DNA from: Neoconidiobolus thromboides FSU 785
Lineage: Eukaryota; Entomophthoromycota; Entomophthoromycetes; Entomophthorales; Neoconidiobolaceae
Assembly (NCBI GenBank): GCA_025603075.1
Contig: MU626341.1
Coordinates: 25,153 to 89,152, forward strand
Length of the DNA stretch: 64,000 bases
Direction: 5' to 3'
Both the position numbers and the translations under genes were made by a program. Below, one piece after another: positions 8,369-62,229 of this stretch. Numbering within the stretch: the stretch's first letter is position 1; the number at the start of each line of letters is the position of its first letter. The notes under the pieces were generated by a model. The model was not told the DNA's origin, searched no databases, and was given only the letters and a program-made list of their open reading frames with translations.

Positions 8369-9337
8369 ATGACTGGAGAACAATATATGGCAGGGGTAAA
8401 ACCCTTATCTCCTAATGAGATACCTGGATGGACTGCTCCAGTTTTATTTACTTTACTCATAATTGAATTGTTTGCTATAGCACTAAACGTTATTACTTTT
8501 TTCTTGATAAGAAAGCAAGGCTTTAAAACGGTAGACATGTGGATAGCGGCTATTCTTACAGTTGGAGATACTATTTATTTGATATATAAAATTGTACAAT
8601 CTGCTTTAGTTACAACTTACGACATTCAAACGATATTAATGGGAAGTGACGCTTATATGCAATTTGATGGGGCATTTGAGACTTTTATATTGTTGACTTC
8701 AATTAACTGTATGGGGGTTTTAGCTGCAATAAGGTTCTGGGGACTATACTTGAAAAAGCCTATTGTATCAAAATATTGGATACTGGCTTTTACTGTCGAA
8801 GAGATACTTATTTTGGTTGGTCTGATAGTTGCAGCCATATATAAAGAATTTGTTTTAGCTCCTGGGCAGCTTTATAATTGTATATATACTATCTCTACAT
8901 CTGGAATCACGAAATTTGTTATAACTTTACAAATTTTATATTTTCTATTAAACTGGGCTATTATAAATATTAGCTACCCACTTTTATGTAAAGGGTATTT
9001 AGAGCAACTTAGATATTATGATGTAGAGCAGGCTGCCAATCTTTATTCAATGAAACGATTCAGTAATGGGAAAAAAACGAGATTAATCGCAAAGACTGTG
9101 ATTCTTCTACTTTTATATAATTTTTGCATGGTGCCTAGTATAGTTGTTTTTTTCAAAGAGCAAATAACTGGGAATTTCAGAAGTTATAGTGAAGATTTTG
9201 TCTTCTCTTGTCCCTTATTTTTAGTGGCTCTTGTAAACCCATTAACTCTTTTGGTTCTTCACGACAATACTACCAAAATTTTCAAAGCTTCATTTGCTTC
9301 ATTCATTAACTCAATTAAATCTTACATATCAAAATAA
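8369..9337 (+). CDS. Rhodopsin-like (family A) GPCR-like receptor 1
   Basis: Intronless, 322 residues, with seven hydrophobic segments at roughly 24-48, 56-80, 100-124, 135-158, 185-207, 238-262 and 277-298. Family A landmarks are visible: Asn40 in helix 1, Asp67 in helix 2 (TVGD), a Pro in helix 6 (NFCMVP) and Asn290-Pro291 in helix 7 (VNPLTLLVLHD). The helix 3 DRY motif is replaced by IRFWGLYLKK, which is conserved as R[FY]W.LYLK in the two paralogs at 13050 and 16347, so it is a family trait. The protein would sit in the plasma membrane with an extracellular N-terminus. Ligand and G-protein coupling are unknown. The start is supported by the shared pattern M....YM at the N-terminus of all three proteins and by the TATA box upstream. 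The C-tail after helix 7 is short. Confidence 0.82.
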   Translation: MTGEQYMAGVKPLSPNEIPGWTAPVLFTLLIIELFAIALNVITFFLIRKQGFKTVDMWIAAILTVGDTIYLIYKIVQSALVTTYDIQTILMGSDAYMQFDGAFETFILLTSINCMGVLAAIRFWGLYLKKPIVSKYWILAFTVEEILILVGLIVAAIYKEFVLAPGQLYNCIYTISTSGITKFVITLQILYFLLNWAIINISYPLLCKGYLEQLRYYDVEQAANLYSMKRFSNGKKTRLIAKTVILLLLYNFCMVPSIVVFFKEQITGNFRSYSEDFVFSCPLFLVALVNPLTLLVLHDNTTKIFKASFASFINSIKSYISK

Positions 9338-13049: not shown

Positions 13050-14039
13050 TTAAGATGAAGACTTGTAACTAAATCCACGATCTTTCTTTTTAAATTTTTC
13101 CACAATAGAATCAAACATTAATTTTAAATCCATATAAATACCATCATGTAAAACCATTAACATCATTGGGTTGACCACAGTAAAAAGCATTACAGTAACT
13201 GCTACTATGGAATCTTCAAGGCTACTTCTTAAGTGTGTCAATACTTGCTCCCTAACACTAATCACTAAATAAGGTACCATACACAAGTTATAAAGTAACA
13301 ACATGATACCTGTTTTGATATACGTACTACGCTTCTGCTTTCTTACACTTGCATTTAATGTATAAAATGAGCCGTTTATTTCACTATCCCCATTATCTTC
13401 AAGCAAATGGATAAATCGTTTAGCTAATAAAGGATAGCAAAAATTTACCAAAAATAAGCAAACAAAACTAAACAGTATGATATAGCATGCAGTAAATCTT
13501 GTTAAAACAACAACAGAAATGGTGTTAGGAAAATAGTACCTTTGGAACGGCATAAGTATAAAGTCCGTATTAACGAAGACGCCTATCAATAATAATATAT
13601 GAACAAATTGAAGAAATATAAATACAGCAACCCATATCCTTATCTTTAGGTCCTTTTTTAGATATAGAGCCCAATACCTTAGCAAAGCCAAATATCCGAC
13701 ACAACTTATTGAAAATAGTACAAAGAACACTTCAATGAGGCCATCATATTGGCCATAATATACATTTAAAAATATTTTTTCAATCCCTAACATATTAAAC
13801 GCTATCAATTGACAAAGTTTATAGCTGACAAATATAGCATCTCCAATCGATAAAAAACTGGCTATCCACATATCAAACGTTATGAATCCTTGTCTTTTCA
13901 CTAGATAGAAAGTGAATAAGTTAAAAAGGATAGATAAAGCTTCAAGTGCAATAGTCAAGTTGCCGCTAAATGCACGTTCGGAAGTAAAACTAGCGACTGG
14001 CTGCAAGGACAACTTGTCCATATATAATGTTGAATTCAT
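13050..14039 (-). CDS. Rhodopsin-like (family A) GPCR-like receptor 2
   Basis: Intronless, 329 residues, seven hydrophobic helices. It is a paralog of the genes at 8369 and 16347. Conserved features are helix 1 Asn (LFNLFTFYL), the loop KRQGF followed by DMWIA, helix 2 Asp (SIGDAIF), the helix 3 end RYWALYLKKD, helix 6 NLCMVP and helix 7 NPMMLMVLHD. The C-tail ends Ser/Lys-rich (KKKDRGF then SYKSSS), as in many receptors with phosphorylatable tails. A TATA-like TATAAATT on the minus strand (near 14090-14097) lies about 55 bp upstream of the ATG at 14039. It is likely a plasma-membrane sensor; the ligand is unknown. Confidence 0.82.
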   Translation of the reverse strand: MNSTLYMDKLSLQPVASFTSERAFSGNLTIALEALSILFNLFTFYLVKRQGFITFDMWIASFLSIGDAIFVSYKLCQLIAFNMLGIEKIFLNVYYGQYDGLIEVFFVLFSISCVGYLALLRYWALYLKKDLKIRIWVAVFIFLQFVHILLLIGVFVNTDFILMPFQRYYFPNTISVVVLTRFTACYIILFSFVCLFLVNFCYPLLAKRFIHLLEDNGDSEINGSFYTLNASVRKQKRSTYIKTGIMLLLYNLCMVPYLVISVREQVLTHLRSSLEDSIVAVTVMLFTVVNPMMLMVLHDGIYMDLKLMFDSIVEKFKKKDRGFSYKSSS

Positions 14040-16305: not shown

Positions 16306-16346
16306 CTACTTAACGTTAAATGGTATACAAATTCTTTTTTTTCGTC

Positions 16347-17318
16347 ATGGACTCGAGTGAATACATGAAACATTTAGTCATCCAACCTGTGGATAAGGAG
16401 GATTTGAACCGGATCATAAGCGGCTATATAATAATAAGTATTGAAATTTTAGCCTTTTTATTCAATGCTTTGACCTTTTATCTGATCAAAAAACAGGGGT
16501 TTAAAACTTTAGATATGTGGATAGCAAGTTGTTTAGCATTTGGTGATATCTTATTTGTAGCTTATAAACTGGCCCAATTAGTGGTATTTAGAGTTTTAGG
16601 TGTTGATAGTGTTTATTTAAACATTGAGTATGGCCAAGTGGATGGTTGCTTTGAAGTTTTTATGATGCTGTTTTCAGCCAATTGTGTTGGTGCGTTGGCT
16701 CTATTAAGATTTTGGGCACTGTATCTTAAAAGGCCAATCGTCAATGGTTATTGGATAACTATCTTTGTTCTTCAAAACATGATTTGTTTAACATTGCTTC
16801 TAATAGCTGCAGTAAAAAAAGAGTTTATCTTAATGCCATTACAACGATACTATTTTCTTAATACAGTATCCAACGTACTCTCAACAAGAATAGGAGCTTG
16901 GTTTATTATTATAACTAATATCTTTAATTTCATTATTGTAAACGTGTGTTATCCACTACTATATTATAATTTTAGTAATCGAATGGAAACCATAGATCAG
17001 GAGCGGGAGATTATTTTTGATAGCATTAAAACACGCTACAATAAGAAAAAACGGAGTATTTTAATCAAAACCTCAATCACGTTGTTACTATATAATACTT
17101 GCTTATTACCTATTTTAATTATCAGTATACGAGAACAGTTAAATGGATTCATAAAGTCATATAACCAAGATGTTATAGTTTCTTCCACTGTTATGCTTTT
17201 ATGCTTTGTAAATCCATTAATTTTATTAATCCTTCATGATGATATCAATAGGTCTTTAAAAGATATTTTGAAAGCAGTAGTAAGATTTATTAAGGGAGCA
17301 TTCAAGAGATGTCGGTAA
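16347..17318 (+). CDS. Rhodopsin-like (family A) GPCR-like receptor 3
   Basis: Intronless, 323 residues from the chosen ATG. A longer frame starts at 16320, but its nine extra residues have no counterpart in the paralogs, and the TATA box spacing favours 16347. All three receptors then begin M....YM. Seven hydrophobic segments; landmarks are FNALTFYLIKKQGF (helix 1 and first loop), DMWIASCLAFGD (helix 2 Asp), RFWALYLKRP (end of helix 3), NTCLLP (helix 6) and NPLILLILHDD (helix 7). It is closest by eye to receptor 2. The ligand is unknown. It probably acts as a cell-surface sensor in a lineage-expanded family. Confidence 0.82.
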   Translation: MDSSEYMKHLVIQPVDKEDLNRIISGYIIISIEILAFLFNALTFYLIKKQGFKTLDMWIASCLAFGDILFVAYKLAQLVVFRVLGVDSVYLNIEYGQVDGCFEVFMMLFSANCVGALALLRFWALYLKRPIVNGYWITIFVLQNMICLTLLLIAAVKKEFILMPLQRYYFLNTVSNVLSTRIGAWFIIITNIFNFIIVNVCYPLLYYNFSNRMETIDQEREIIFDSIKTRYNKKKRSILIKTSITLLLYNTCLLPILIISIREQLNGFIKSYNQDVIVSSTVMLLCFVNPLILLILHDDINRSLKDILKAVVRFIKGAFKRCR

Positions 17319-47593: not shown

Positions 47594-48700
47594 ATGGAAA
47601 AGCCACACTCATCTAAAAGAACTGTTTTAACAATGAAAATAAAGCTTGATATAATTCATTTAGCTCAAAATAAAATATCCCATCAAAGTATAGCAAAAAA
47701 ATATGGGGTTGGAAGAAGTACCGTAACCAAGATTCTATCTCATAAGGACAAGATTGTTCAATTAAGTAATGGTATATTGGAGGATGAAAGAAAAAGGATT
47801 AGATTAAATGAGTTTGAAGATATTGAGCGTAAAGTTCTTGGATGGTTTGGTGCCAATCATAAAAGGAACAAAAGCAGAATTCTAATGCTTCCATTACAAT
47901 ATAACAGACAAATTATAATTGATAAGGCCAATAAAATCGCTGTTGAGTTAGGCAAAGGTGATATTGTAGCTGATGAGAAGTGGTTAAAGAAATTTTGTAG
48001 AAGGCATAAAGTCAAGTTTATAAATGACATCAAGAATAATTCTACTTGTTTAAATGATACTTCAAACCATACCACTACTGACGCTAATTCATTAGATAAT
48101 GACACTGTATATATATCCTCTGATTCTAATAATGGTTTTGATTCTTCAATAAATAATAGTTATAATAAAACTAAAGACCAAATCGTTCAACATATCAATT
48201 ATCAAATACAAAATGAAAATGAAAGTGTGATTATTGAACCAAATAATCTAAATCTAACTGATTGTGAATATAATATTATTAATGATTTAAATCAAACAAT
48301 TAATAATTTAAGGAGAACGATTGACGATCTAAAACAAAATGTTGGTAATCGAGATTTGATGGTTGATTTTCTATCTGATCACGTTTATAGTTTGTCTGAA
48401 TATGTACTTTCAATAGGTCAATGTGTTACACAGGATAATCTACAATTCAGTAACTTAATTAACCACATGAATACATCAAATCAATTTTCAAATCCTTGTC
48501 TTTTGACTAATCTACACTTTCGTCAAATTGGTAATCAACTGAACATGGCTAATTTAAATAATACAATATCGTCAATTAATGCGTCTAACTCAATGTCAAA
48601 CTTTCAGGGCCTTCCAGGATTTGGCACTAACAATAATACCTCAAGCAACTTAGATAATCAATATTTACATTTCCCAAATTATTTTTTTGAGAATATTTAG
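47594..48700 (+). CDS. CENP-B/Tigger-type DNA-binding protein A, no transposase domain
   Basis: 368 residues from the first in-frame ATG (MEKPHSSKR); the frame is open a little further upstream without ATG. Residues ~8-57 are a CENP-B N-terminal helix-turn-helix (KRTVLTMKIKLDIIHLA, HQSIAKKYGVGRSTVTKIL). Residues ~78-142 are the second, Tc5/CENP-B-type HTH (ERKVLGWFGANHKRN through ADEKWLKKFCRRHKVKF). In pogo/Tigger transposases a DDE catalytic domain would follow. Here there is only an Asn/Ser/Asp-rich linker, a probable coiled coil (LNQTINNLRRTIDDLKQNVG, about 230-280) and an Asn/Phe-rich tail. It should therefore bind DNA and oligomerise but not cut. Close paralogs are at 53275 (minus strand), 56591 (broken) and 61081 (first HTH lost). 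It may be a domesticated transposase-derived protein; the role is unknown. Confidence 0.8.
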   Translation: MEKPHSSKRTVLTMKIKLDIIHLAQNKISHQSIAKKYGVGRSTVTKILSHKDKIVQLSNGILEDERKRIRLNEFEDIERKVLGWFGANHKRNKSRILMLPLQYNRQIIIDKANKIAVELGKGDIVADEKWLKKFCRRHKVKFINDIKNNSTCLNDTSNHTTTDANSLDNDTVYISSDSNNGFDSSINNSYNKTKDQIVQHINYQIQNENESVIIEPNNLNLTDCEYNIINDLNQTINNLRRTIDDLKQNVGNRDLMVDFLSDHVYSLSEYVLSIGQCVTQDNLQFSNLINHMNTSNQFSNPCLLTNLHFRQIGNQLNMANLNNTISSINASNSMSNFQGLPGFGTNNNTSSNLDNQYLHFPNYFFENI

Positions 48701-49266
48701 GCTCGCTAAACGTGCTTTATCCTCTTCTTTAAATTCTGTACTTCTAAACTCTATACTTAATATTAAGCATTTCCAATATTTTCTAATTATAGTATATGTA
48801 TAATAAAAACAATATCCTTATATTATTGTTACTATTATCATAGTGCTATGTTGCTATAATTAATATACTCTACATCATAATAGCCATTTATTACTAGTCT
48901 ATTTTATTAATCATCAATCATAGTAAGCTAATCATGATCTTTAAATTTTAAATAACAATAATAATTTATGTTTAATTTTTGACCAAGCTTTTAACGATCA
49001 TTATAGTTAACATACATATGTATAGTGTGACAATAACTTTGTTTAAATTTATGTATATTTGTTAAAACATTTTACAACAATAATAAAATTGAGTTAATTT
49101 GAATACATGAAAGTATTTTATTCTTATCAATAATTACATAGACTAGATAGTAAAATGCTATTACCTTTAAAAGAAATATCAAAAAATAATACAGGAAACC
49201 TGTATCCAAATGCAAAACTATAAAAGCATAAAGATTGAACTCTATTTCTATAATTTCTTATTTGAA
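48701..49266. other. Intergenic
   Basis: About 570 bp, AT-rich, between the CENP-B-like gene A and the epoxide hydrolase. Nothing recognised. Confidence 0.5.
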
Positions 49267-50546
49267 ATGAATTCAACCTTTGATTTAAACAACCCAGACT
49301 CTTACCACCATAAAACCATTCAACTAAAAGATAAAATTTATCGTAAGTAATTAAATCACTCATATAAAGTCAAACCAACAATTTTTCAGATTATGTTGAA
49401 GAAGGTTTAGAAAATGCACCATATGTTTTATTACTACATGGGTTCCCAGAAGTAAATCAAAAGATCAACAAACTATAAACCTCTAATCAGTTTTTAGTCC
49501 TGGTACATGTGGAAGTACCAGATTTCATACTTAGTTGAAAAAGGGTATCACGTGGTAGCCTTTGATATGCCAGGTTATGGAGAAACAAAAGTAGAAAACA
49601 AACTTGAAAATTATACCTTAAAAGTGATAGCTGAGGATATTCATACTATTTTCACAGAGAATTTTCAACAGAATAAAGTATATATCATTGCTCATGATTG
49701 GGGTAGTTTTGTTGGTTGGGAATTAGCTTATAGATATCCAGAAAATATTCAAGGCTATATTAGTTTAAGTATACCATATTTTCCAACACTTGGAGAGCCA
49801 AAGAGTGAAAGACAAAAAGCTGAAGCATTTCCAGTTCTTGGTTATCAGGTAATTTGAAATACACAGCCAAGTTAGTGAATCAAGGTAATTAGCTATTTTA
49901 TTATTATATAGGTGGCTTTGAATGAAGGAAACATTGGAGAGTTTGATCAAAATGTAGAAAAATTTGTCAAAGCTTTTTATATCACGGTACCAAACTTTGA
50001 CAAAACTAATTATCTTAAAGTACCCTTGGATAAGTCATTGTTTGATCACTTTGATACTTTTGATAACTCAAAATCGGAATATATTGATGAAAATGTAACA
50101 GTTGTTATTTTTATTAAATATAATTAATGTTTATTAATATTCCTATATAGTACTTGAATTATTTAATCAAACAATTTAAAATTCAAGGTACCCAGGGCCC
50201 AACTAATTGGTATCGTACAAGCTTATTGAATGGTAAAAACGATCAAGAGAAGCCCAATTTAAATATTAGTGTTAAATGTTTACAGGTAAGGATATGCTTA
50301 ATGCTTTCATTATATTGGTTTTTAACGAAGAAATAGATATTAGGTGATAGAGATTTCTGTACAGGATTTAAAGATTTTGCTCAACATTACTTAAAAGAGG
50401 CTTCAACGGAGGCAAGTGGCTTATACTTTTTAATTATTAGTCTTTAATAACTGTTTTTACAGATTATCAATGGTGGTCATTGGATTCAATATCTTAACTA
50501 TGAGAAAGTGAATTCACTGATTGGAGATTTTTTAAAGCAGGTTTAG
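49267..50546 (+). CDS. Soluble epoxide hydrolase (alpha/beta hydrolase)
   Basis: Seven-exon model: 49267-49342, 49390-49451, 49498-49848, 49912-50094, 50151-50285, 50337-50411 and 50463-50546. It totals 966 nt, 321 residues, in phase. The oxyanion motif HGFPESW starts at residue 42, the nucleophile is Asp113 in AHDWGSFVGW, the acid Asp is in ILGDRDF and the base His is in NGGHWIQYL. The pattern HGFPESW plus HDWG is that of epoxide hydrolases, which open epoxides to diols by an Asp-ester intermediate; fluoroacetate and haloalkane dehalogenases are relatives. Intron 6 uses a GC donor (GAG|GCAAGT) instead of GT. This is one of few intact metabolic genes in the repeat-rich half. No signal peptide is seen, so it is cytosolic or peroxisomal. 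Confidence 0.88.
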
Positions 50547-50593
50547 AATTCAAATCGACAACTGTTATTCAAAATAAAATTAAGCTATCATTA

Positions 50594-50680
50594 TGTGAAG
50601 TGTTTTTTTGGTTTCATTATTTTTTCCATCTTTTAAGCATTATTTGAGCGAAAATCATTAGCAAAATCCTTTAATATATG
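50594..50680 (-). mobile_element. Short TIR element copy 15
   Basis: Starts TGTGAAGTGTTTTTTTGG, core AAGCATTATTTGAGCG. The right end is lost after AGCAAAATCCTTTAA. It sits between the epoxide hydrolase stop and the tRNA. Confidence 0.65.
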
Positions 50681-50753
50681 TGAATGTATTTTTTTAATAT
50701 ATGTCTCACTTTCAAGAATTTAAAAAACAGCTGTGATAAACCTCAACATTGTA

Positions 50754-50824
50754 TGCGTACACTGGGAATCGAACCCAGGCCACTTCTTTGGAAGAGAAGT
50801 ATTCTACCTCTATACTATGTACGC
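50754..50824 (-). tRNA. tRNA-Gly (anticodon UCC)
   Basis: On the minus strand the 7-bp acceptor stem GCGTACA / TGTACGC closes a complete cloverleaf. The anticodon arm is CTTCT-CTTCCAA-AGAAG with anticodon TCC, and the T arm is CTGGG-TTCGATT-CCCAG. 71 bases including the discriminator A; no intron. A run of six T (minus strand, 50727-50722) about 27 bases downstream can terminate RNA polymerase III. Confidence 0.93.
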
Positions 50825-50896
50825 TAAACTTATTTTTATAGAAAGATTTAAAAATATATATTAAAAAAAGTTAGTCATTATAATAGTTCACCCATA

Positions 50897-50994
50897 TGGG
50901 TGTATTTTTTTTGACTTCATTATTTTTCCACTTTTTAAGTGTTATTTGTGGAAAATTTGTTAGTGAAATTCTTAAGCACAAAAATACATCACCA
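50897..50994 (-). mobile_element. Short TIR element copy 16
   Basis: 98 bp. Ends TGGGTGTATTTTTTTTG and ACATCACCA, TA on both sides. The core is shortened (AAGTGTTATTTGTGG). It lies 72 bp beyond the tRNA. Confidence 0.8.
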
Positions 50995-51100
50995 TATAAT
51001 TTAATTACACTTTTAGTAAAAGTATGGATATTTTCAGTAAAAAAACAGCAGAAATAAAAATTTTAACTTTATCACTTCCAGAAATGATCTTAATATGAGG

Positions 51101-51563
51101 TGTGAAATCTGGTACTCAGTGATTGGAGTCAAAAAACAGCTATTGCTCAGTTGACTACACTATAAGTCGAAAGGTCTTAGTTTATGTGACTAAGATAAGC
51201 TTGGATTATGAAGGATAGCACGTAATAGGCTACAAACTATGTAAAACAAATAGAATAGATAATACTAATGTAAAATCTACGTAAAATACTATTAAGAAAA
51301 CTCAGTGGCTTTATTAGGTGTTCGAGATATCAGTGAGTAATTCAGTTAAAAAGCCTCGAACTACTATACTGAAAACTCTTTTATACTCTGAAAAGTATAA
51401 ATATCAAAATGAGAGGATAATATTCTTTGGGATGGAGCTAGAAATTCTCATAGCAAATCAAACTAAGAACGTAGGATTGATTTTCTCTGAACTCGAGAAC
51501 ACAATAGCTTAGGCAATTATTATGCTATAATTAACCATGGGACTCACAAAGCGATATTTCACA
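51101..51563 (-). mobile_element. Solo LTR of the same family as 6746-7213
   Basis: 463 bp bounded by TGTGAAAT and ATTTCACA with the 4-bp direct repeat GAGG on both sides (51097-51100 and 51564-51567). Read on the minus strand it aligns along its whole length with the LTR at 6746-7213; for example both contain CTATTGCT, AAGTCGAAAGGTC and GTTCTCGAGTTCAGAG (in one orientation). It is an independent insertion left as a solo LTR. A 64-codon frame inside is not a gene. Confidence 0.85.
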
Positions 51564-51972
51564 GAGGGACTTTGACATCATTAACGATTATGCTATCCTG
51601 ATAAGCATTGGCAACATAAACGGTATTGATAAAGCAGATTAATACTGGAGTGTTTTTAATAAATGGAATGGGGTATAGGATTTTGCTTTTATAGTAATTA
51701 TTAGGTAAATCAGAATTTTTTTGTTTTTAATTGATACATTGTTAAAATAAAAAAAATTAAATGAGAATGATTTGATATAAAGGGTCTTTTTCTGTTTCAC
51801 GAAATCTAGTTGATGACCTGAGTAAAAAACTCTTTTTAAGCACTTCTGAATAAAGGTATTTAGTGATATCTGGGTATGAAGTTAGGATTAGGGGATGTAT
51901 GCGTTTCTTTAATTTCTCAAATTTTTAACTGCAGGATAAATAAAATTATCTACATGAGAGAAAAAATGCATA

Positions 51973-52072
51973 TGGGGATGTATTTGTTTTTAAGAATTTC
52001 ACTAACAAATTTTCCGCTCAAATATTGCTTAAAAAATGGAAAAATAATGAAGTCAAAAAAAAAACACTCCTA
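51973..52072 (+). mobile_element. Short TIR element copy 17
   Basis: 100 bp. Ends TGGGGATGTATTTGTTTT and ACACTCCTA, core CCGCTCAAATATTGCTT. TA on both sides. Confidence 0.85.
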
Positions 52073-52453
52073 TATAGACAAATGGCCCAATTTACACCAT
52101 TTTAACCAACAGTTTATATACTCACCTTTTCCATATAAAGGAACTAGATTCTATTTTAAAACGTAACTTTTTATTGCTTCAAATCCTTACAGTAGAACAA
52201 AAATACACTTATTTGGGAAAATGACTTAATGTTTGTAAATTTTTATGAATTCTATTTAATCCAAAAATAATATAAAAATAATTTAAAAACTATTTTAGAG
52301 ACAAGAAATGTAAGTTGTTTTAAAATAAAAACATATGATTCACTTTGTTGTATTTTATTTCACTCGTATTGTTTATTTCCAAGCTATAATAAAGTCCAAA
52401 AAATTTAGTATTAGAATCATTTTACTAGCTACTGTATTAAGTGAGGATATATA

Positions 52454-52553
52454 TGGGGATGTATTTTTGTGTTTAAGAATCCTACTAACAATTTTTCTGC
52501 TTAAATAGCGCTTAAAAATGGAAAAAATAATGAAGTCAAAAAAAACACTCCCA
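52454..52553 (+). mobile_element. Short TIR element copy 18, first of a triplet
   Basis: 100 bp, near consensus: TGGGGATGTATTTTTGTG to ACACTCCCA, TA on both sides. The right TA is shared with the next copy. Confidence 0.9.
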
Positions 52554-52555
52554 TA

Positions 52556-52654
52556 TGGTGATTTTTTTTTTGATTTCATTACTTTTTCTATTTTTTAAAC
52601 TCTATTTGACCAAAGGTTGTTAGTGAAATTCTTAAACAAAAAAACATATCCCCA
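52556..52654 (-). mobile_element. Short TIR element copy 19, second of a triplet
   Basis: 99 bp in the opposite orientation, TGGTGATTTTTTTTTTG to ACATATCCCCA. It shares a TA with copy 18 on the left and with copy 20 on the right. The core is eroded (AACTCTATTTGACC). Confidence 0.9.
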
Positions 52655-52656
52655 TA

Positions 52657-52753
52657 TGATGATGTTTTTTTTGATTTCACCTTTTCCATTTTTAAGTGCC
52701 ATTTGAGCGGAAAGATTTCTAATAAAGTTCTTAAATGAAAAAATACATCCTCA
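52657..52753 (-). mobile_element. Short TIR element copy 20, third of a triplet
   Basis: 97 bp, TGATGATGTTTTTTTTG to ACATCCTCA, core AAGTGCCATTTGAGCGG, TA on both sides. Confidence 0.9.
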
Positions 52754-53274
52754 TATGTTGCTAAGTATTGTAAAAAATAGATAATAAAAATACAACTTAA
52801 ACAACAAATAGTTTTTATGTCTAAAAAAAGCCTATTTTAAATAATTTTTTCAATTGTTGCAGTTATATGTTTACTGTTTATTTTTTTGTATAACTCTTAA
52901 CATTAGGTAATCCCCTATATGATTATAGAAAACTAAATTTTACAGCGGTATTTAACAGCTTAAAGTTAGCAGTTTATTGCCATCTAAAACTAATGAAATA
53001 ATCACATTAGTCACTATTTGTTATTTAATGTGACTTATAATTAGTATATTATAATATTTGTACAATGTATATGTGGTATAGGAGTAAAAAATACCGATAT
53101 TTAATATAATAGCTATAAACAGAATTCAGGAGAAACGCAGGTTTCGAAGAAGATAAAGTATATTTTAAAGGCCAAAGATTTATGAATGAGTTAGGGAATT
53201 GAAAAACCGATCATCAAAGCAGTCTAAAATACTACCTTTGATAATGTGCTTTGAAAAACCCAGGTTAATCGACA

Positions 53275-54372
53275 TTACATCAAATCATTAATCAGCTCAC
53301 TTTCCCAAGTTGTGTTGAATTGGATATTGTTTTGACCAAAAAAGGAATTGATTAGTTGTGTTGTACTATATGGGTTACTTTGATGAGCCGTATGGAATTG
53401 GGTATTATTTTGATTAAAGGATTGGTTAATTGAGGAAATATAAGAATTTACAAATTGATTTGGTGTATTTATGTGAATATCCAAATTACTAAATAATACA
53501 TTGTTATTTACAACATTTTGTGTTATTGAAGCTACGCGTTGACTTAACTTATTTAACTGTTCAGACAAAACTTTGGTATTTGAATTTATATTATTAATAA
53601 TTTCTTTTAAATCATTAATAGCACTAGCTTTACTTTTACTTGAGTTTGCTTTTCTCAAATCAATAATGTCGTTTGGATCTCGAAACTGTGTCTCAGAATC
53701 AATATGAGCTGATTGGTCTTGGTTTTTACTATATTGGATTTGAATATTATCAGGATTTACAGATGAGCCCACCTGATCACACTCATTGGCTTTTGTTAGA
53801 TCAATAATATTACCAAAAACTGAGCACACATTATCAATGTCCTTGATCAAGTAATTACTATGAGTGGTAGAGCCATGGAGCGACGATATTGTATTACTAC
53901 TGCTTAGAGAATCGCTTGAACGAATGGGGCTGTCATTGGTGTTGCTTTCAAATTTGAGTTTAAATCTTCTACAAAATCTCTTCAACCATTTCTTATCAGC
54001 TATAAAGTCGGCTTTGCTTAATTCAACAGCGATTTCATTGGCTTTATTAATTATAGCTTGCTTGTTGTATTGTAAAGGAAGTAGTAGATTCCCATCGTTA
54101 TTTCTTTTGAGACTAGTACCAAACCACTCAAAGACTTTACGCTCAATATCGACAGAATGATTCACTCTAATACGTTTTCTTTCATCTTCAGTTACACCTT
54201 TACTTTCTTTGATAATATCATCTTTTCTTAACAAAATCTTAGTGACTGTGCTTCTTCCAATTCCATATATTTTTGCTATACTTTGGTGAGACATTTTATT
54301 TTCAGCTAAATTGATTATATCGAGCTTTATTTTCATCATTAAAACAACTCTTTTGGACGAATTTTCTTTCAT
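53275..54372 (-). CDS. CENP-B/Tigger-type DNA-binding protein B, no transposase domain
   Basis: 365 residues starting MKENSSKRVVLMMKIKLDII. It is a close paralog of protein A on the opposite strand. The first HTH (about 6-55) reads HQSIAKIYGIGRSTVTKIL; the second HTH (about 76-140) reads ERKVFEWFGTSLKRNN through ADKKWLKRFCRRFKLKF. A long Ser/Asn/Asp-rich linker follows, then a likely coiled coil (LKEIINNINSNTKVLSEQLN, LSQRVASITQNV; about 265-305). The tail has two copies of an N..FNQNN.QF unit (FNQNNTQFHTAHQSNPY and FFGQNNIQFNTTWE), the same motif that is tandemly repeated in protein D. No DDE domain. The frame is intact, with the second-domain tryptophans and basic residues retained, so the DNA-binding part is probably functional. 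Confidence 0.8.
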   Translation of the reverse strand: MKENSSKRVVLMMKIKLDIINLAENKMSHQSIAKIYGIGRSTVTKILLRKDDIIKESKGVTEDERKRIRVNHSVDIERKVFEWFGTSLKRNNDGNLLLPLQYNKQAIINKANEIAVELSKADFIADKKWLKRFCRRFKLKFESNTNDSPIRSSDSLSSSNTISSLHGSTTHSNYLIKDIDNVCSVFGNIIDLTKANECDQVGSSVNPDNIQIQYSKNQDQSAHIDSETQFRDPNDIIDLRKANSSKSKASAINDLKEIINNINSNTKVLSEQLNKLSQRVASITQNVVNNNVLFSNLDIHINTPNQFVNSYISSINQSFNQNNTQFHTAHQSNPYSTTQLINSFFGQNNIQFNTTWESELINDLM

Positions 54373-54528
54373 AATTTAAAGTTGATTTGATTATTATTTT
54401 TAAAATAAGTTTTTCAGAAAACGTTGCATTTATTGAATTTATACTATTTAGCTAAGTTCTTATAACGCTAACTATGAAATTATGTTAATTCTTTAGATGC
54501 TAAATAACTCAAACAGGTCTGATTGGAT

Positions 54529-54566
54529 ATTGATTTTTTGATTGATTTTTTGATTGATTTTTTGAT
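54529..54566. repeat. 12-bp tandem repeat
   Basis: TTGATTTTTTGA-type units (period 12) are repeated three times without visible change. Likely a simple repeat. Confidence 0.7.
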
Positions 54567-55366
54567 TATTGAAAAATGCTTATTTCTTAATCAGGGTTAT
54601 TGGTGAGCAGTGTTCATTCACTGTAATTTATTTTGAGTTATATAAAAATTTGATGAGCATATATTATTCATGGTACTCAAATGATTGAAATAGGTATAAA
54701 CTATTTGGGTTTATATCATCCCTGTATCGACAAGTTTTTTAAAGGCTAATAATGTTAAAACAAAAACTATATTAAAGCTTAATATATAAAAAACATTGCT
54801 ACATTATTCATTAAATGAATATTTCCAATTCAACTTAAGTGTTATATTATCGGTTTATCCCCTACATCGTCTTAACTAAATGCTTTAAATAGCGCTTTTA
54901 TTCGTTTCTGTTTGACTTTAGTTAATACAAAAGTATTCAAAGTTATATAAAAATAGACTATACACCCTTGCCACTTTATATTAAAATTTTATTGTATGAT
55001 TTTACTTAGATCTTTCTTATTTATATTAATAGTATTTACCATAACATTAAAACGCTTAGGATTCAATATTTTCCTAAACAAAAATTACTAGAATAAAACA
55101 AAAAATCCTAAAAATTACCAGAATTCATCTGAATTGAAAGCTGTTTATGTTAAATATAGGTATGTTATGAGTTATCTTTTGACTTTGTATCGCCTATCTT
55201 TTTTATATCTATTTTTGATAGTGCTAAGTTATACAATGCCATATTTGAACATTTCCCCTTCTAGACTATTCAAGTTTCTTAATAACTTGTTCTACATAAT
55301 CAATATTTCTATTTATAAAAAATATTAATATCCGAAAGTTGAAAATTAAATTTAATATTTTACTCC

Positions 55367-55479
55367 TTTTAAATGCGATTTTGGGCACTTTTGATTTTTA
55401 TTTAATCATTTTAAAGATTGGCATTTTATGTTTTATATTGACCAAAGACGAAGTAAAAGTGCCCAATTCACATTTAAAA
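55367..55479. repeat. Second inverted-repeat element (hairpin / MITE-like)
   Basis: A 26-base left arm (TTTTAAATGCGATTTTGGG then CACTTTT) at 55367-55392 has a nearly exact reverse complement at 55455-55479 (AAAAGTGCCC then AATTCACATTTAAAA), with three mismatches or gaps. The spacer is 62 bases. Its sequence is unrelated to the abundant short element. Only one copy is in the window, so whether it is mobile is unknown. Confidence 0.6.
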
Positions 55480-56072
55480 CGAATTGATAATAGCAGTCAA
55501 CCTATATGATTTTTAAGATCAATATTATTCTTAAATAATCAATGTAGTTAAAAATAAACCTTAATAGGCTTGCTTAACTTTATTTTTTAATTAAGATTTC
55601 ACTTATTAGTAATTCTACCTTCTTCAAATTTTAATAAAAAGTATATTTCCATATTAAAACAATTTAAATTAAATATGACTAAAGCGTACTTAATCTTCCA
55701 AAAGATTACATTAATGTTCAATTATTTGATTAAACTTTAAATAATTCATGTCAAGTATTTTATATCTTAACTCTCCTTTTATAAAAGTTATTGAGCATTA
55801 TTAAGTCAAACTAACGAGATCATTTTAATAACTTAAAGTTGCCATAATCAAGATTTAATGTACAAATAGATTATTTGTATTTATAGGTTATTTTTGGATT
55901 ATGATATCTTCAAGTTATAAAGAGAACCACATTTAGCTTAAATTGGTAACAGTTCGTTCATCACTTCATCAAAGGAATAGTCAACTTATTTGAAGCATAA
56001 TCAAATCATTGATTAATGTGATACTGTGAATTTCAATATATGAGACTTTATGATGTTATAGATATTATTATA

Positions 56073-56173
56073 TGGGGATGTATTTTTGTGTTTAAGAATT
56101 TTACCAACAAAATTTCCGCTTAAATGGCGCTTAGAAAATGGAAAAAATAATGAAGTCAAAAAAAACACTCTCA
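56073..56173 (+). mobile_element. Short TIR element copy 21
   Basis: 101 bp, TGGGGATGTATTTTTGTG to ACACTCTCA, core CCGCTTAAATGGCGCTT, TA on both sides. The right TA is shared with the next copy. Confidence 0.9.
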
Positions 56174-56175
56174 TA

Positions 56176-56258
56176 TGATGTTGGCTTTTTTTATTTAATT
56201 TTACATTTTTCAAGCGCTATTAAGTGAGAAATTATCGGTAGGAACCAAACAAAAAAGA
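56176..56258 (-). mobile_element. Short TIR element copy 22 (right end lost)
   Basis: Starts TGATGTTGGCTTTTTTTA, core CAAGCGCTATTAAGTGAG. It lacks its right end where copy 23 begins. Copies 21, 22 and 23 are contiguous. Confidence 0.65.
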
Positions 56259-56260
56259 CA

Positions 56261-56357
56261 TGGGGATATATTTTTTGTTTAAGAACTTTACTAATAATCT
56301 TTCCGCTCAAATAGCGCTTAAAAATGTGAAAGTAATGAAACCAAAAAAATATCCCCA
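56261..56357 (+). mobile_element. Short TIR element copy 23
   Basis: 97 bp, TGGGGATATATTTTTTG to ATATCCCCA, core CCGCTCAAATAGCGCTT. Flanked by CA on both sides. Confidence 0.9.
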
Positions 56358-57749
56358 CATGTTCTAATGACATCTTATATTTGGTTAAGTCGATATACTC
56401 TAACAACCCAATAACCAAATGAATAATGGAATCCTTTTTTAGGATAAAAAGCAGTAATATAAAAAGACTTCCCATCTAAAAAGTGTTTCGTCTTTGAAAT
56501 AAAAAACGAACATGGACAGTCTGCTTAAAAATAAAGCATCAAGACAATATAACAAGCAAATCTGGTATAAGAAGAAATAAAGTGACTATGATGTCTTTGA
56601 AAAAAGACGTAACTATTCAAGAAGGTAACAATATGTCTGAAGATGAAAGTAAAATAATCAGGATAAACGAAGTTCATAATAGAGGAAATTTACCATTCCC
56701 ATTGCAATCTAATGAGGAAAATTTAATTTAAAGCCCAAAAGAAAGTTTATTAAGTTATTCATAACACCTTTTATAGCTAGCGGAAAATTTATAAAGAACA
56801 TATGTAGAAATTATAAGTTTAAACTGGTCAACAGCATCAAATGTACCCCCATTTATGTAAAGAACAATTCAAACGGCCATAATGCAATGTAATTATGCTA
56901 TGGTTATTCTATTGGTCCCAATCCTTTGGATGACTCCACTGTGAATGTCTTTGATTTTGATGATCCTGTCGATTCGCCAAATGATACTAATTCAGAGGCT
57001 TCATTGATAAGCTCTATAGTTGATACTGATACTTTTGATAGAGACATTTCAGATATACATTCTAATTCCGATAACGTCTTTTCCTCGCTAATAGGCAATT
57101 CCTTTTATGAAACGCCCTTAAACGGCTTTCCTTATGATATTATGGCCCTTTTCAACAAATATATTGGGGATATACTCTTATTCTGTTAATGATATAAATT
57201 CTTTAATAGGTAATGGTTTTGGTGAAATAACCGCTTCCTATGGTTTTGATATAGATACTGACTCTTTAAATAGTAATGTTATAGATATACTCTATGGTTC
57301 TGGAAACATTATCAATTATTCAATGACTGAGAAATTTGAAACGAAGCCTTTCAGCAGTATTGTTGACCATCATTTCACTCTTATTATAGCCATAGTATCC
57401 CTTTGGATAATACTTATAGTGAATTGGATCAATCCGTAGATATTATCAGCATTTTCAACCAATCTAATGAAGTTAGAGATCAAATTATGAGGGAGAATAT
57501 TAATTCAAACAATTCAGACTTAAATGAGGATGACAATCTCTCGGATAACCTTCTTTGTTATAAATTTTATAAGAGTTCCAGGAGAATGAAAAGGTCTGGT
57601 TGTATATTTTTTAATCATAAATATTCTGACATCTTAACTAGTTATAAATATAAACGCAATGCTAACGATGACTTAAAGGAAACAGAAAATGGTTTAATAA
57701 AGTAGATTCATCCACAAATCCCATTTACAAGGAAATCAAGAATAATGAA

Positions 57750-57850
57750 TGGGGATGTATTTTTGTGTTTAAGAATTTTACTAATAAATTTTCCGCTCAA
57801 ATAGCGCTTAAAAGGTGGAAAAAGTAATGAAATCAAAAAAATCATCCCCG
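57750..57850 (+). mobile_element. Short TIR element copy 24, inside pseudogene C
   Basis: 101 bp, TGGGGATGTATTTTTGTG to CATCCCCG, core CCGCTCAAATAGCGCTT, AA on both sides. It interrupts the linker of pseudogene C. Confidence 0.9.
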
Positions 57851-58334
57851 AATATTTACATAAATATTATAATAGTATTGATATGAACACTCTAAATTTG
57901 CAAAGTAATATATCTAATATTGTTAAAAGTTTGGGATAAACAAGTACTAATCATGAAGATATATATAAAAACATGGCTGAATTTTACGATGAGCTTAAAT
58001 ATGATAATCCTATTAGGCTTTTTTACAGTGGTATTGATGAAGACAATCTATACTTGAATAATTATGAGTCTAATATTATCAATACTGTTAATTTACCAAC
58101 GAATAATAATTGTAATAAAACAGATCCATCCATAAATCCTGTTTGTGATGAAAGTAAAAATAATGAAAATAAAAACATATTTAATAATGCTATCGATTTA
58201 AACACCTTATCCTCGTATAGCAATGAAACAAACATCACTAATATTTCAATGAATAATAATTTTGATGAGATAAATATATCCATAAATCATGCCTATACCG
58301 AAATTAAAAATAATGAAAATAAAGGTTCAATATA

Positions 58335-58435
58335 TGTGGGTGTTTTTTTTGGCTTCATCATTTTTTCTATCTTTTAAGCGCCATTTGAGCGGAAGAATTA
58401 TTAGCAAAATTCTTAAACACAGAAATACATCCCCA
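58335..58435 (-). mobile_element. Short TIR element copy 25, inside pseudogene C
   Basis: 101 bp, TGTGGGTGTTTTTTTTGG to ACATCCCCA, core AAGCGCCATTTGAGCGG, TA on both sides. Confidence 0.9.
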
Positions 58436-59322
58436 TATAATAACATCAATTCCGACATGTTAAATTCAAATGGTAGTGAAGCCGGTATAATAAATAACTT
58501 AATGCAGTTAATAATTGAATTTAAACTCAATTATCAAAAACATATCTAATCAAGTATTTCTGTTAAATAAAATTTAATTTGATAAATGAAAGTATTGAAC
58601 AGTATAATAAACTACCCGGTAAATCACATAGCCTAATAAATATGGCAAATCAATTCTAAGTCCCCATATTTGACCAACCAACCAATATTTTGATCCAAAT
58701 AATACTCATTTTGTTATATCAAATCAGCTTGCGTGCCCTCATATTTTTCCAATTAATTCATATCTTGGTATAAATAATAATGAATTTAGTAGCAATTCAT
58801 ACTTTGATTCATATAATAATCAGTTTATTAACAACTCATCTTTTAACCTAAATATTAATCCATATTCTAATTTAAACTATAAACATAAACAGATTAATAC
58901 GAGGGATCAAAATGATTTATTCAATAAATTCGATGTAATGTTAACTAACTCAAGTTTTTCAGGGCTCAAATTCGATAATAACATTCCGGATAATAGTAAC
59001 ACAAATCAATTATAACGATAAACAGCTTTTATCAACGTATTTTATCCTTTTCTTTTTATGCCATTGATTTTTATGAACTCTCTGTAATGCTTATAACTTC
59101 AAATTTCAATAATTTTTATATCCGTAACACCTGTGCAACATAAACATTAGCCTTATTATGTTTGCTAACTGTATACTGCGTTATAATAATGCAAAGCAGT
59201 TTAGTATTGATGCTTTATTTATTATAAGTAATAATCAATAAATAAGTATCCTATTTAAATTTTTAAGTAACATTAATTATTATTTTTTAATTAGATACCA
59301 AAAAAACTATGCCTTTATTATA

Positions 59323-59421
59323 TGGGAGTGTTTTTTTTGACTTCATTGTTTTTTCCACTTTTCAAGCGCCATTTGAGTGGAAAATGTTGGTAAAATTCTT
59401 AAGCACAAAGATGCATCCCCA
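59323..59421 (-). mobile_element. Short TIR element copy 26
   Basis: 99 bp, TGGGAGTGTTTTTTTTG to GCATCCCCA, core AAGCGCCATTTGAGTGG, TA on both sides. Confidence 0.9.
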
Positions 59422-59860
59422 TATAATGGAAACTAGAAGAGTTAGTTTAGAGAAAAGTCACATATAGAAAGAACCTTTGAGCCTTAAGACTAAGAGCCAT
59501 TGCAGAATAACAATTTTATTTTGTTTGATTTTTATATTAAGTTTCTTATCATTATATTAAATTTAGAGCAGTTTTTATATTTGTATATTATTAAATAGCT
59601 TTTATTTATTCATACATATTTCTTTGGATTGTCTGATACTATTAATATAGATTGTATGTATTATTTGTAAAGTATGATTTTATCATTTCAATTTTATAAA
59701 AAAAATTAAAGATGCTAAAACTTTATTACCCCTTTAATTTCGATAAGCTCGATTACTGGGTTCATCTTAAATTTCACTATTACAAATAAAACATTCAATA
59801 GTTCCTGACTCTTTTGGGACTTCAAAGAATCACTTAAATATATATATATATATATATATA

Positions 59861-59945
59861 TGTATTTAAGAACTCCACTAACAAATTTCCCACTCAAGTA
59901 GCGTTTAAAAGATAAAAAAAGTAATGAAACCAAAAACATCCCTCA
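59861..59945 (+). mobile_element. Short TIR element copy 27 (left end replaced by TA repeat)
   Basis: The element begins at TGTATTTAAGAACTCCAC directly after a (TA)n run and ends ACATCCCTCA. The left terminal repeat is missing; expansion of the flanking TA is one explanation. Confidence 0.75.
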
Positions 59946-60189
59946 TATACTGCAACTATTTGATAATAATACTATTTATTAATTTTTATTTTTGTTTATA
60001 TAAAGCATTAGTTTTATATACTATTTAATCAAATTTATTTTTATTAGTAGTAAATCCTAATAATTTTTCTTTCCTTTTTTGTTTTATAAAATTTTATAAA
60101 CTCTGAGTTATTATATATCTATTAGCATTTGAAAAAAATATAAGTCTTCCAAAATAATTTTTTTATTTAAGCTTTTTAAATTTAATTAA

Positions 60190-60285
60190 TGGAAGTGTTT
60201 TTTTCAGCTTTATTATTTTTTCTCTTTTAAGCGCTATTTGAGTGGAAAATTTGTTAGTAAAATTTTTAAACAAAAAAATATCCCT
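60190..60285 (-). mobile_element. Short TIR element copy 28
   Basis: About 96 bp, TGGAAGTGTTTTTTTC with core AAGCGCTATTTGAGTGG and eroded right end AATATCCCT. Confidence 0.75.
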
Positions 60286-61080
60286 TAATCATATATTAAG
60301 AACTTACAAATTTAGAAACTTAATTTAAATTGGCTTTTAACTAAATTCTAAAATTGATTTGGGCATCCTATGCAATAAAATAAAGCTTGAATTGTAAATA
60401 TTAGCATACATAATAGATTCTCATAAGCAAAGAACTATTCCAGGTTTTTTGATCTACATAGGTTGCTATTTAATTTAAGTGTTTTGCGATTTTTGTAAAT
60501 TTGGATTAACAATAACTTCAGCAATCTTCTTTTTAATCATTTAACTCTTTAAATAATAAAAAACTTAATGATTGTATACAAGTATAAAAAATTATGAAAA
60601 GTGATATAAAATATTTGAAAAACTATTGGACAGAATTTCTTTAATACAAAAAAGCCATTAGCTATCAACATCAATTAAATAAAAACTAGTATTAGTAAAA
60701 TTTAGTTTAATTTAATTTAGTTTAATTTTATAAAGGGAATTATTTTAAATTCTAGGCAAAATAAACTTCACAATTTAAAAAAATTAAATGTATATAAAAC
60801 TCAAAAATACATTGTTTCTTTAAATCATACCAAAAACTATAAATGTTAACAGGTGACCTCATTTTTTGTTTTTATAGGTTAATCTTTATAGCAAAAAAAT
60901 CAACCCAATCACAATCGCTTTTATGTAAATATGACGATTGACGATTTACAATGACTTAAATTGGTGCACGCTTTAAGAACCAAGTAACAATATTTAAATG
61001 GTGGAGTCTTTTTTTGAGTATTAGTAAATAGTAATAAAAATTCTTTATCTAAGAAAAGCGTGTTGTCCTTAAAATAACCA

Positions 61081-62229
61081 ATGTACATTATGAACATTAT
61101 GGATTCACTTGGAAACAAAGTATTACAACAAAGTGCAACAGATGAATCTGATATTGGAGGAATTAAAGTCACCGAGGTAAATGAATTCAATGACGGTGGC
61201 AACTTGGAATTCCCATTGCAATATAAAGGGGAAGATCTACTTGATAAAACCAGAAAAAAGTTTGTTAAGTTAGTCAAAACGCATTTTATAACTAATAAGA
61301 AATGGGTAAAAAAATTGTGTAAAATATTCAAGTTTGAACCAACAAATAATGTCAAAAGTGGTTCCACCCACTCAAATGATATGTCAAACAATAATTTTGG
61401 GTTGGCTTTATTCTTGATGTCTACTGGCGAATACGGTACTTTAGATACTGATGATGCGGATCTATCACATGGAGATGATAACGGTTTTAATTATCAATTG
61501 TGTAATAGTTTTAAAGGAGTATGTATATGTACAAATTCTATTTGTGGTAAAAGTATAAACAATGAAGATCTAGACCAATTCATCATTGATATTAATTCAA
61601 ATACTATTTACTCAAGTGCCAGTGAGACCAGCATTATTAATAATTTAAGACAGATAATTAATAGTCAGGATTTATTGATCAAGACCTTATCCGAACAAGT
61701 TTCTAAATTAAGTCAAGACATAACTTTGGTAAATCAAAATGTTGAATATCAAAGCCGATTGCTGTGTAACTTTCAAAGTCAAACAAATATGGTAGATTGC
61801 ACTGGATATCATCAGATTTCGCCAATTAATCCGTTTTTTGATATAAGTAACAACCAATTCGATCAGATTTGGCAAAACAATCCATATAATACATTCAATA
61901 CAACCTTAAATAATCCATCTTCTGGTCTGAGCAATACTCAGGTTGATACGCTTTGCCAAAATACCTTACCTAATACATTGGATTCGATGGCAACTAACTT
62001 ATCTTCTCATATAAATAATAATCAGTTTGGGATGTACCATCAAAATAATTCCTATAGCACTATTTTTCCAACTAATCCATTTTTTGGCCCAAATAGCACA
62101 CAACTTAATGTAACTTACCAAAAAAATTCATTTGATGCATTCGATACAATGCCACTTAAACCAACTTCCCCAGGGCTCTATCTCGATAATAGCGCCCTGA
62201 GAAACATTGATAAAGGTTTCATACAATAG
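61081..62229 (+). CDS. CENP-B-like family protein D with tandem tail repeats
   Basis: 382 residues, starting MYIMNIMDSLGNK. It has lost the first HTH of proteins A and B but keeps the second-HTH block: GNLEFPLQYKGEDLL, then TNKKWVKKLCKIFKFEP (ends about residue 90). The middle is Asp/Ser/Asn-rich with a short Cys-containing stretch (GVCICTNSICG). A probable coiled coil follows (LLIKTLSEQVSKLSQDITLV). The tail holds four 26-28-residue repeats of the form NPFF..(S/N)N.QF....QNN.Y.TF, at about residues 254-281, 282-309, 310-335 and 336-363. Without the first HTH its DNA binding is doubtful, but the frame is intact over 382 codons. Alternative ATGs at residues 4 and 7 are possible. The role is unknown. 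Confidence 0.65.
   Translation: MYIMNIMDSLGNKVLQQSATDESDIGGIKVTEVNEFNDGGNLEFPLQYKGEDLLDKTRKKFVKLVKTHFITNKKWVKKLCKIFKFEPTNNVKSGSTHSNDMSNNNFGLALFLMSTGEYGTLDTDDADLSHGDDNGFNYQLCNSFKGVCICTNSICGKSINNEDLDQFIIDINSNTIYSSASETSIINNLRQIINSQDLLIKTLSEQVSKLSQDITLVNQNVEYQSRLLCNFQSQTNMVDCTGYHQISPINPFFDISNNQFDQIWQNNPYNTFNTTLNNPSSGLSNTQVDTLCQNTLPNTLDSMATNLSSHINNNQFGMYHQNNSYSTIFPTNPFFGPNSTQLNVTYQKNSFDAFDTMPLKPTSPGLYLDNSALRNIDKGFIQ

Follow-up and report, generated by a model that had tools for sequence, protein, structure and literature searches.

A probable lineage-specific family of pogo-derived, DDE-free DNA-binding proteins in the fungus Neoconidiobolus thromboides

A window of 64,000 nucleotides from Neoconidiobolus thromboides FSU 785 (contig C84, bases 25153-89152) was analysed for a cluster of four genes, A to D, that are related to the DNA-binding part of CENP-B and pogo-type transposases. 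Gene A (47594-48700, plus strand) was a single open frame of 368 amino acids, comprising two helix-turn-helix (HTH) domains, a disordered linker, a helical coiled coil and a disordered tail. HTH1 was affiliated with CENP-B_N (PF04218; residues 8-56, 47615-47761, plus strand) with a Pfam E-value of 2.3e-11 and 43.6 bits against a cut-off of 21.2. HTH2 was affiliated with HTH_Tnp_Tc5 (PF03221; matched residues 104-142, 47903-48019, plus strand) with an E-value of 1.5e-7 and 31.7 bits against a cut-off of 22.2. The sister gene B (53275-54372, minus strand) encoded 365 amino acids with the same architecture, based on Pfam, the family tree and the heptad score, and its two domains scored 36.4 and 32.3 bits. 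No DDE family was present among the Pfam matches of A, B and D up to E 1. The initial annotation, made from the sequence, was thus correct in stating that A and B keep both HTH domains without a DDE domain. Its description of an Asn/Ser-rich linker, a coiled coil and a repetitive tail also held, with Asn and Ser accounting for 32% of the part behind HTH2 in A and likewise in B, a heptad score of 0.82 in both and tails of low complexity.

The AlphaFold2 model of A was calculated from 9 sequences and had a mean predicted local distance difference test (pLDDT) value of 59. HTH units were folded at residues 14-58 and 73-142. The coiled-coil stretch (48260-48469, plus strand), supported by both the model and the heptad score, was formed by helices at residues 223-248 and 253-292. 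These helices were of middling confidence, with a pLDDT of 61-78 for residues 221-280, and values below 50 were obtained for residues 147-219 and 280-368. In Foldseek, CENP-B on its box DNA (1hlv) was the only PDB match of the A model at E <= 0.001 among the matches listed. A concealed RNase H-like fold in the C-terminal half, raised as a possible objection in the initial annotation, was not detected in the AlphaFold2 models of A and of the typical member P0004, which was folded in its HTH units only. Neither was a DDE or RNase H-like name present among the best 50 of 495 Foldseek rows for A. The low-confidence tail of A could hide a very degenerate domain, but its composition is of low complexity. 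To the sensitivity of these searches, the DDE nuclease is gone from the double-HTH family. DDE_1 was present in the genome at two loci, on C88 and C51, neither of which is a contig with a cluster.

Of the two other genes, C was broken and D was degenerate. C (56528-58955, plus strand) showed in tblastn a degenerate HTH1, a stop-bearing HTH2, an enlarged linker and weakly matching tail pieces. Its homology to B was split between 56528-56728 and 56749-56928, which lie in different frames and include an internal stop. Weak matches to D were found for the tail pieces at 58442-58513 (E 0.10) and 58740-58955 (E 0.020). Between the HTH-matching pieces and the tail pieces lay two copies of a repeat resembling a miniature inverted-repeat transposable element (MITE) of about 105 bp, at 57728-57869 on the minus strand (nhmmer match C84:82880-83021) and at 58312-58458 on the plus strand (C84:83464-83610); window coordinates are contig coordinates minus 25152. 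D (61081-62229, plus strand) was an open frame of 382 amino acids with a degenerate HTH1, HTH2, a coiled coil and a repetitive tail, as judged by comparison with A and B and by the heptad score. Pfam detected neither CENP-B_N nor HTH_Tnp_Tc5 in D. HTH2 was recovered by the genome search, with 36% of positions identical to residues 96-148 of A (E 6.8e-5). When the first 33 residues were aligned, 10 were identical to A (residues 14-47) and 11 to B (residues 13-46), so that HTH1 of D is degenerate rather than simply lost as proposed earlier. The proposal of a broken C was upheld. The recognition-helix stretch read GGIKVTEV in place of GRSTVTKI and was followed by a gap of 41 residues relative to B. 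A remnant upstream of D ended in a stop.

By eye, the MITE-like repeat ended in GGGGATG-type sequences and showed what seemed to be target duplications of 4 bp, and its ends are presumably unlike those of pogo. It was frequent throughout the genome, where a first look gave 4307 candidates, of which 40 were scored. There were 40 merged matches on C84. The repeat was considered as a target of the double-HTH proteins and rejected, as its apparent enrichment in the clusters was gone on counting. Densities per kb were 0.35 on C147, 0.34 on C207, 0.55 on C170 and 0.72 in the C84 cluster, compared to 0.39 in the rest of C84, showing no general enrichment in clusters.

The family was distributed over the genome. 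A search with the double-HTH module of A yielded 26 matches, comprising 24 double-HTH loci, D and a stop-bearing fragment on C89. A second query added C34 and, on C217, another fragment with stops. C147 and C170 held six double-HTH loci each, C207 four, C14 and C84 two each, and C36, C106, C120 and C377 one each. Another locus was present on the same contig for 20 of the 24, and 22 lay outside the window. The initial annotation had therefore rightly described intact, truncated and dead members within 15 kb and had understated the scope of a genome-wide family. The stop-free frames were 29-67% identical to the A module. For P0001-P0005, P0007 and P0008, seven deposited models of which one is marked partial, the lengths equalled those of the single-exon frames predicted here. 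On C377, the match covered residues 7-125 only, with HTH2 under the Pfam cut-off. The same contig carried a large inverted repeat (C377:3837-8210) with opposed frames of 425 and 384 amino acids; at the nucleotide level, it was 65% identical to its reverse complement. The end of C147 (C147:49061-49417, end of L041) and the start of C207 (C207:1-357, start of L042) shared 357 identical bases in a frame labelled lipase-like from a look at the sequence, suggesting that both contigs are perhaps adjacent. In that case, ten family genes would lie within about 42 kb. Beside two clusters, a duplicate of about 2.4 kb with 88% identity was present (C170:36769-39138 and C207:21031-23426), containing a frame that looked 5'-nucleotidase-like from the sequence.

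The family alignment comprised 23 members. It omitted C377, which has no ATG ahead of the module, D with its one HTH and the C89 fragment; C34 and C217 were also outside. The members covered by the coil, motif and selection tests did not include C377 and C34. In the recognition helix of the 23 members, R41 and S42 were invariant and T43, T45 and K46 were conserved to at least 90%. The family tree was midpoint-rooted, and 11 of its 23 inner branches were open. The grouping of A with B was supported by 100/99, and the pair nested within the C147 group (96/92) with C147_32.4 as the nearest member (96/89). Several contigs formed clades of their own. Members from C147, C170 and C207 were not all grouped together, and the C120 member was placed in the C170 clade (99/98).

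Purifying selection on the HTH module was supported, and for D it was unsupported. Ratios of nonsynonymous to synonymous substitutions (dN/dS) were calculated with NG86, as YN00 gave values for only two of 11 HTH pairs and two of ten tail pairs. The 11 HTH pairs were a selected set and not every pair of the 23 members; six showed values of 0.13-0.29 and five were undefined because of saturation. For the tails, eight of ten pairs had values of 0.36-0.73, one reached 1.17 and one was undefined. In a neutral simulation, the frame of B stayed open in 0 of 2000 runs, and in 0 of 3000 runs in each of two further settings. The comparison across paralogues, suggested in the initial annotation to distinguish constrained genes from decaying transposases, indicated constraint rather than simple decay for the HTH modules and a state nearer to relaxed selection for D. 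Differences between D and B were flat over the codon positions (0.46/0.42/0.46). D may be under relaxed selection, recently enough to stay open, since 10 of 3000 runs remained open when only an eighth of the divergence was neutral.

Two features of the tails were new here, the SNVP peptide and a coiled coil, which was seen for A, B and D only. SNVP was spotted by eye in the alignment and then tested. It was located no more than 75 residues past HTH2 in 10 of 23 members, compared to a mean of 0.10 and a maximum of 3 in 2000 shuffles. The looser pattern [VI].SN[VIF] occurred in 14 members (shuffles: mean 0.65, maximum 4), with the instance in L011 far from the usual place. Synonymous codons varied at the SNVP site, suggesting that selection acts on the peptide. 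The same variation ruled out a read-through splice signal. The heptad scores of A, B and D, the latter 0.74, were matched by none of 100 shuffles each. Eligible coil windows had 35 residues, no proline and at most one glycine. Among the other 21 members, eight scored 0.24-0.42, which 10-62 of 100 shuffles equalled or exceeded; an eligible window was absent from the remaining 13. As A and B nest within the C147 group, the coil appears to have been gained on the A/B branch. The parallel drawn earlier to CENP-B as a C-terminal dimeriser was not supported as a property of the whole family.

The origin of the DNA-binding part from the pogo/CENP-B type, as initially proposed, was corroborated by profile comparison. 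Positions 14-142 of an 18-member family profile aligned near end to end with residues 4-129 of the human CENP-B domain chain 1hlv (E 2.6e-16); A alone gave E 6.4e-7. CENP-B itself has a degenerate DDE part and an acidic C-terminal part, and domesticated pogo transposases often keep a nuclease-derived domain. No counterpart of the DDE and acidic parts of CENP-B was found in the family, the tails of which contain Asn, Ser and aromatic residues. The structure of Abp1 of fission yeast (1iuf) matched the family profile weakly (E 0.61). Abp1, Cbh1 and Cbh2 are also fungal, pogo-derived and equipped with such a DNA-binding domain, and they are named in a screen of fungal genomes for fusions of host genes and transposable elements (accessible part of PMC10799480). 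In contrast to the N. thromboides family, they retain the DDE-derived domain PF03184, according to the same part of that source. For metazoan CENPB-type factors, the available text of PMC10027918 describes species-specific expansions without one-to-one homologues, for example 14 in Aplysia, where 42 of 59 lineage-specific factors of all families keep the transposase domain; an SNVP motif is not mentioned in this text.

Within N. thromboides, the DDE_1 protein of C88 (L035) was a further point of comparison. It comprised 693 amino acids and was CENP-B-like, with relatives P0011-P0014 including P0013 of Entomophthora muscae, and it was conserved into the C-terminus across five aligned sequences. 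Like the short family, it had HTH_Tnp_Tc5 above the cut-off, with CENP-B_N below. Unlike the short family, it retained DDE_1 (E 4.3e-25) and had an E. muscae relative. In the midpoint-rooted tree, C88 grouped with C47 on a branch separate from the short family (98/97). The residues of the usual catalytic triad look replaced. The second DDE_1 protein, L036 (C51:3899-4330), was located about 4 kb from a telomere repeat (C51:2-91). Because the ends of C84 and of the window coincide, the A-D cluster is close to a contig end. In a test for a subtelomeric position, TTAGGGTTAGGG was not found on the five contigs examined; telomere repeats were present at the ends of other contigs among the matches listed. 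Three neighbouring alike frames of 322-332 amino acids in the window (8369-9337, 13050-14039 and 16320-17318) had the look of seven-helix receptors by eye. For N. thromboides, 8867 genes and 13.5% repeated sequence are reported in the available part of PMC11105155, the main text of which, as far as it was available, does not mention CENP-B or pogo. CENP-B and Tc5 are likewise not mentioned in the accessible part of PMC8778642. A search of a literature library found no paper combining CENP-B with Entomophthor*, and by title none on this family was among the matches listed in further searches.

A lineage-specific expansion, to at least 24 loci, of pogo-derived DNA-binding proteins without DDE, most likely acting as transcription regulators, is the likely explanation of these findings. 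Domestication is well supported; the target sites and the function are what we infer. The family would derive from a pogo-type transposase of which the DNA-binding half was kept and the DDE nuclease lost. By homology, DNA binding by the two HTH domains most likely follows the mode of CENP-B on its box. The low-complexity tails containing Asn, Ser and aromatic residues are most likely effector regions recruiting cofactors of transcription or chromatin, with SNVP as the putative docking motif in about half of the members. In A, B and D, the predicted coil most likely pairs proteins. The nearly constant recognition helix of HTH1 and the diverging tails suggest that the paralogues share related sites and differ in their partners. 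Judged from the tree, local duplication was the main route of growth, with an occasional transfer from one contig to another. Members were also lost, as seen from the broken copy C and the two stop-bearing fragments elsewhere, and probably from D.

Several observations speak against this explanation. The k-mers of the promoters showed nothing clearly above the shuffled null, so that the top candidates for a common motif, several of them pieces of the MITE, were rejected, and no self-regulation site was seen. The A-B tail changed fast, with a dN/dS of 0.69 (NG86) or 0.74 (YN00) and differences flat by codon position (0.45/0.43/0.43). To this add the tail pair at 1.17 and the L024-L026 tail, for which YN00 gave 1.26. 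For the HTH module, the two pairs with YN00 values out of 11 were A-B with 0.48 and L020-L025 with 0.24. A and B are without SNVP, and the database copy of B, P0006, begins at the internal Met 27 inside HTH1. Two family profiles searched against 5.8 billion proteins found no relative outside N. thromboides at E 0.001. The first profile retrieved six N. thromboides proteins at this threshold, one of them the window's own. The second, with a cut-off of 10, listed five, three from N. thromboides and two others at E 0.55 and 1.5. E. muscae is represented in the protein database, which holds the relative of the C88 protein. The search needs shared five-residue words, and distant relatives can thus be missed.

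An extended form of the regulator hypothesis is rather unlikely. Here, the proteins would form a private, clustered set of two dozen combinatorial regulators derived from one transposase domain, with a nearly fixed recognition helix, tails that are disordered and interchangeable, and docking through SNVP; paralogues would vie for the same class of sites, and the expressed tail would set the output. We consider it improbable that the proteins act at centromeres or heterochromatin as functional analogues of CENP-B or Abp1. The CENP-B-type DNA-binding domain and the predicted coil of A, B and D are in line with such a role, but the remaining 21 members gave no sign of the coil, and two dozen fast-changing paralogues would be unusual. 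On the best reading, CENP-B is related through its domain and is a poor model for the function of the family.

It is more doubtful still that the genes are decaying, immobile and truncated pogo transposons with frames open by chance. The broken and MITE-laden C, the stop-bearing fragments on C89 and C217 and the equal differences at all codon positions in D-B and the A-B tails would fit such decay. It is disfavoured by the dN/dS values, by the stop-free frames at 29-67% identity and by the neutral simulations with 0 of 2000 and twice 0 of 3000 runs open. A search for TA-flanked inverted repeats around 19 genes (1.5 kb per side, 16 bp, up to two mismatches) gave 11 candidate pairs, no more than the 12 obtained with mispaired flanks. 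Nucleotide similarity between A and B longer than 250 bp (cut-off E 1e-40) did not extend beyond 411 bp of the HTH-coding region, and just two DDE_1 loci were available as a possible parent element. The least probable explanation, a two-component or non-autonomous element with the HTH protein and a DDE protein acting in trans, could draw on the many copies, the two DDE_1 proteins elsewhere and the C120 copy in the C170 clade, but no shared termini were found around the 19 genes, the copies were diverged, the clades were partly contig-wise and the MITE was not clearly enriched by the genes.

The preferred explanation, a domesticated and expanded set of DNA-binding proteins, means that a fungus outside Dikarya seemingly kept the DNA-binding half of a transposase alone and expanded it into a set of some two dozen copies. 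Since copies that are intact adjoin others that are diverging, broken or gaining a coil, the conversion of a transposase domain to a regulator family can be traced in one genome. The SNVP peptide provides a concrete handle on the function of the tails.

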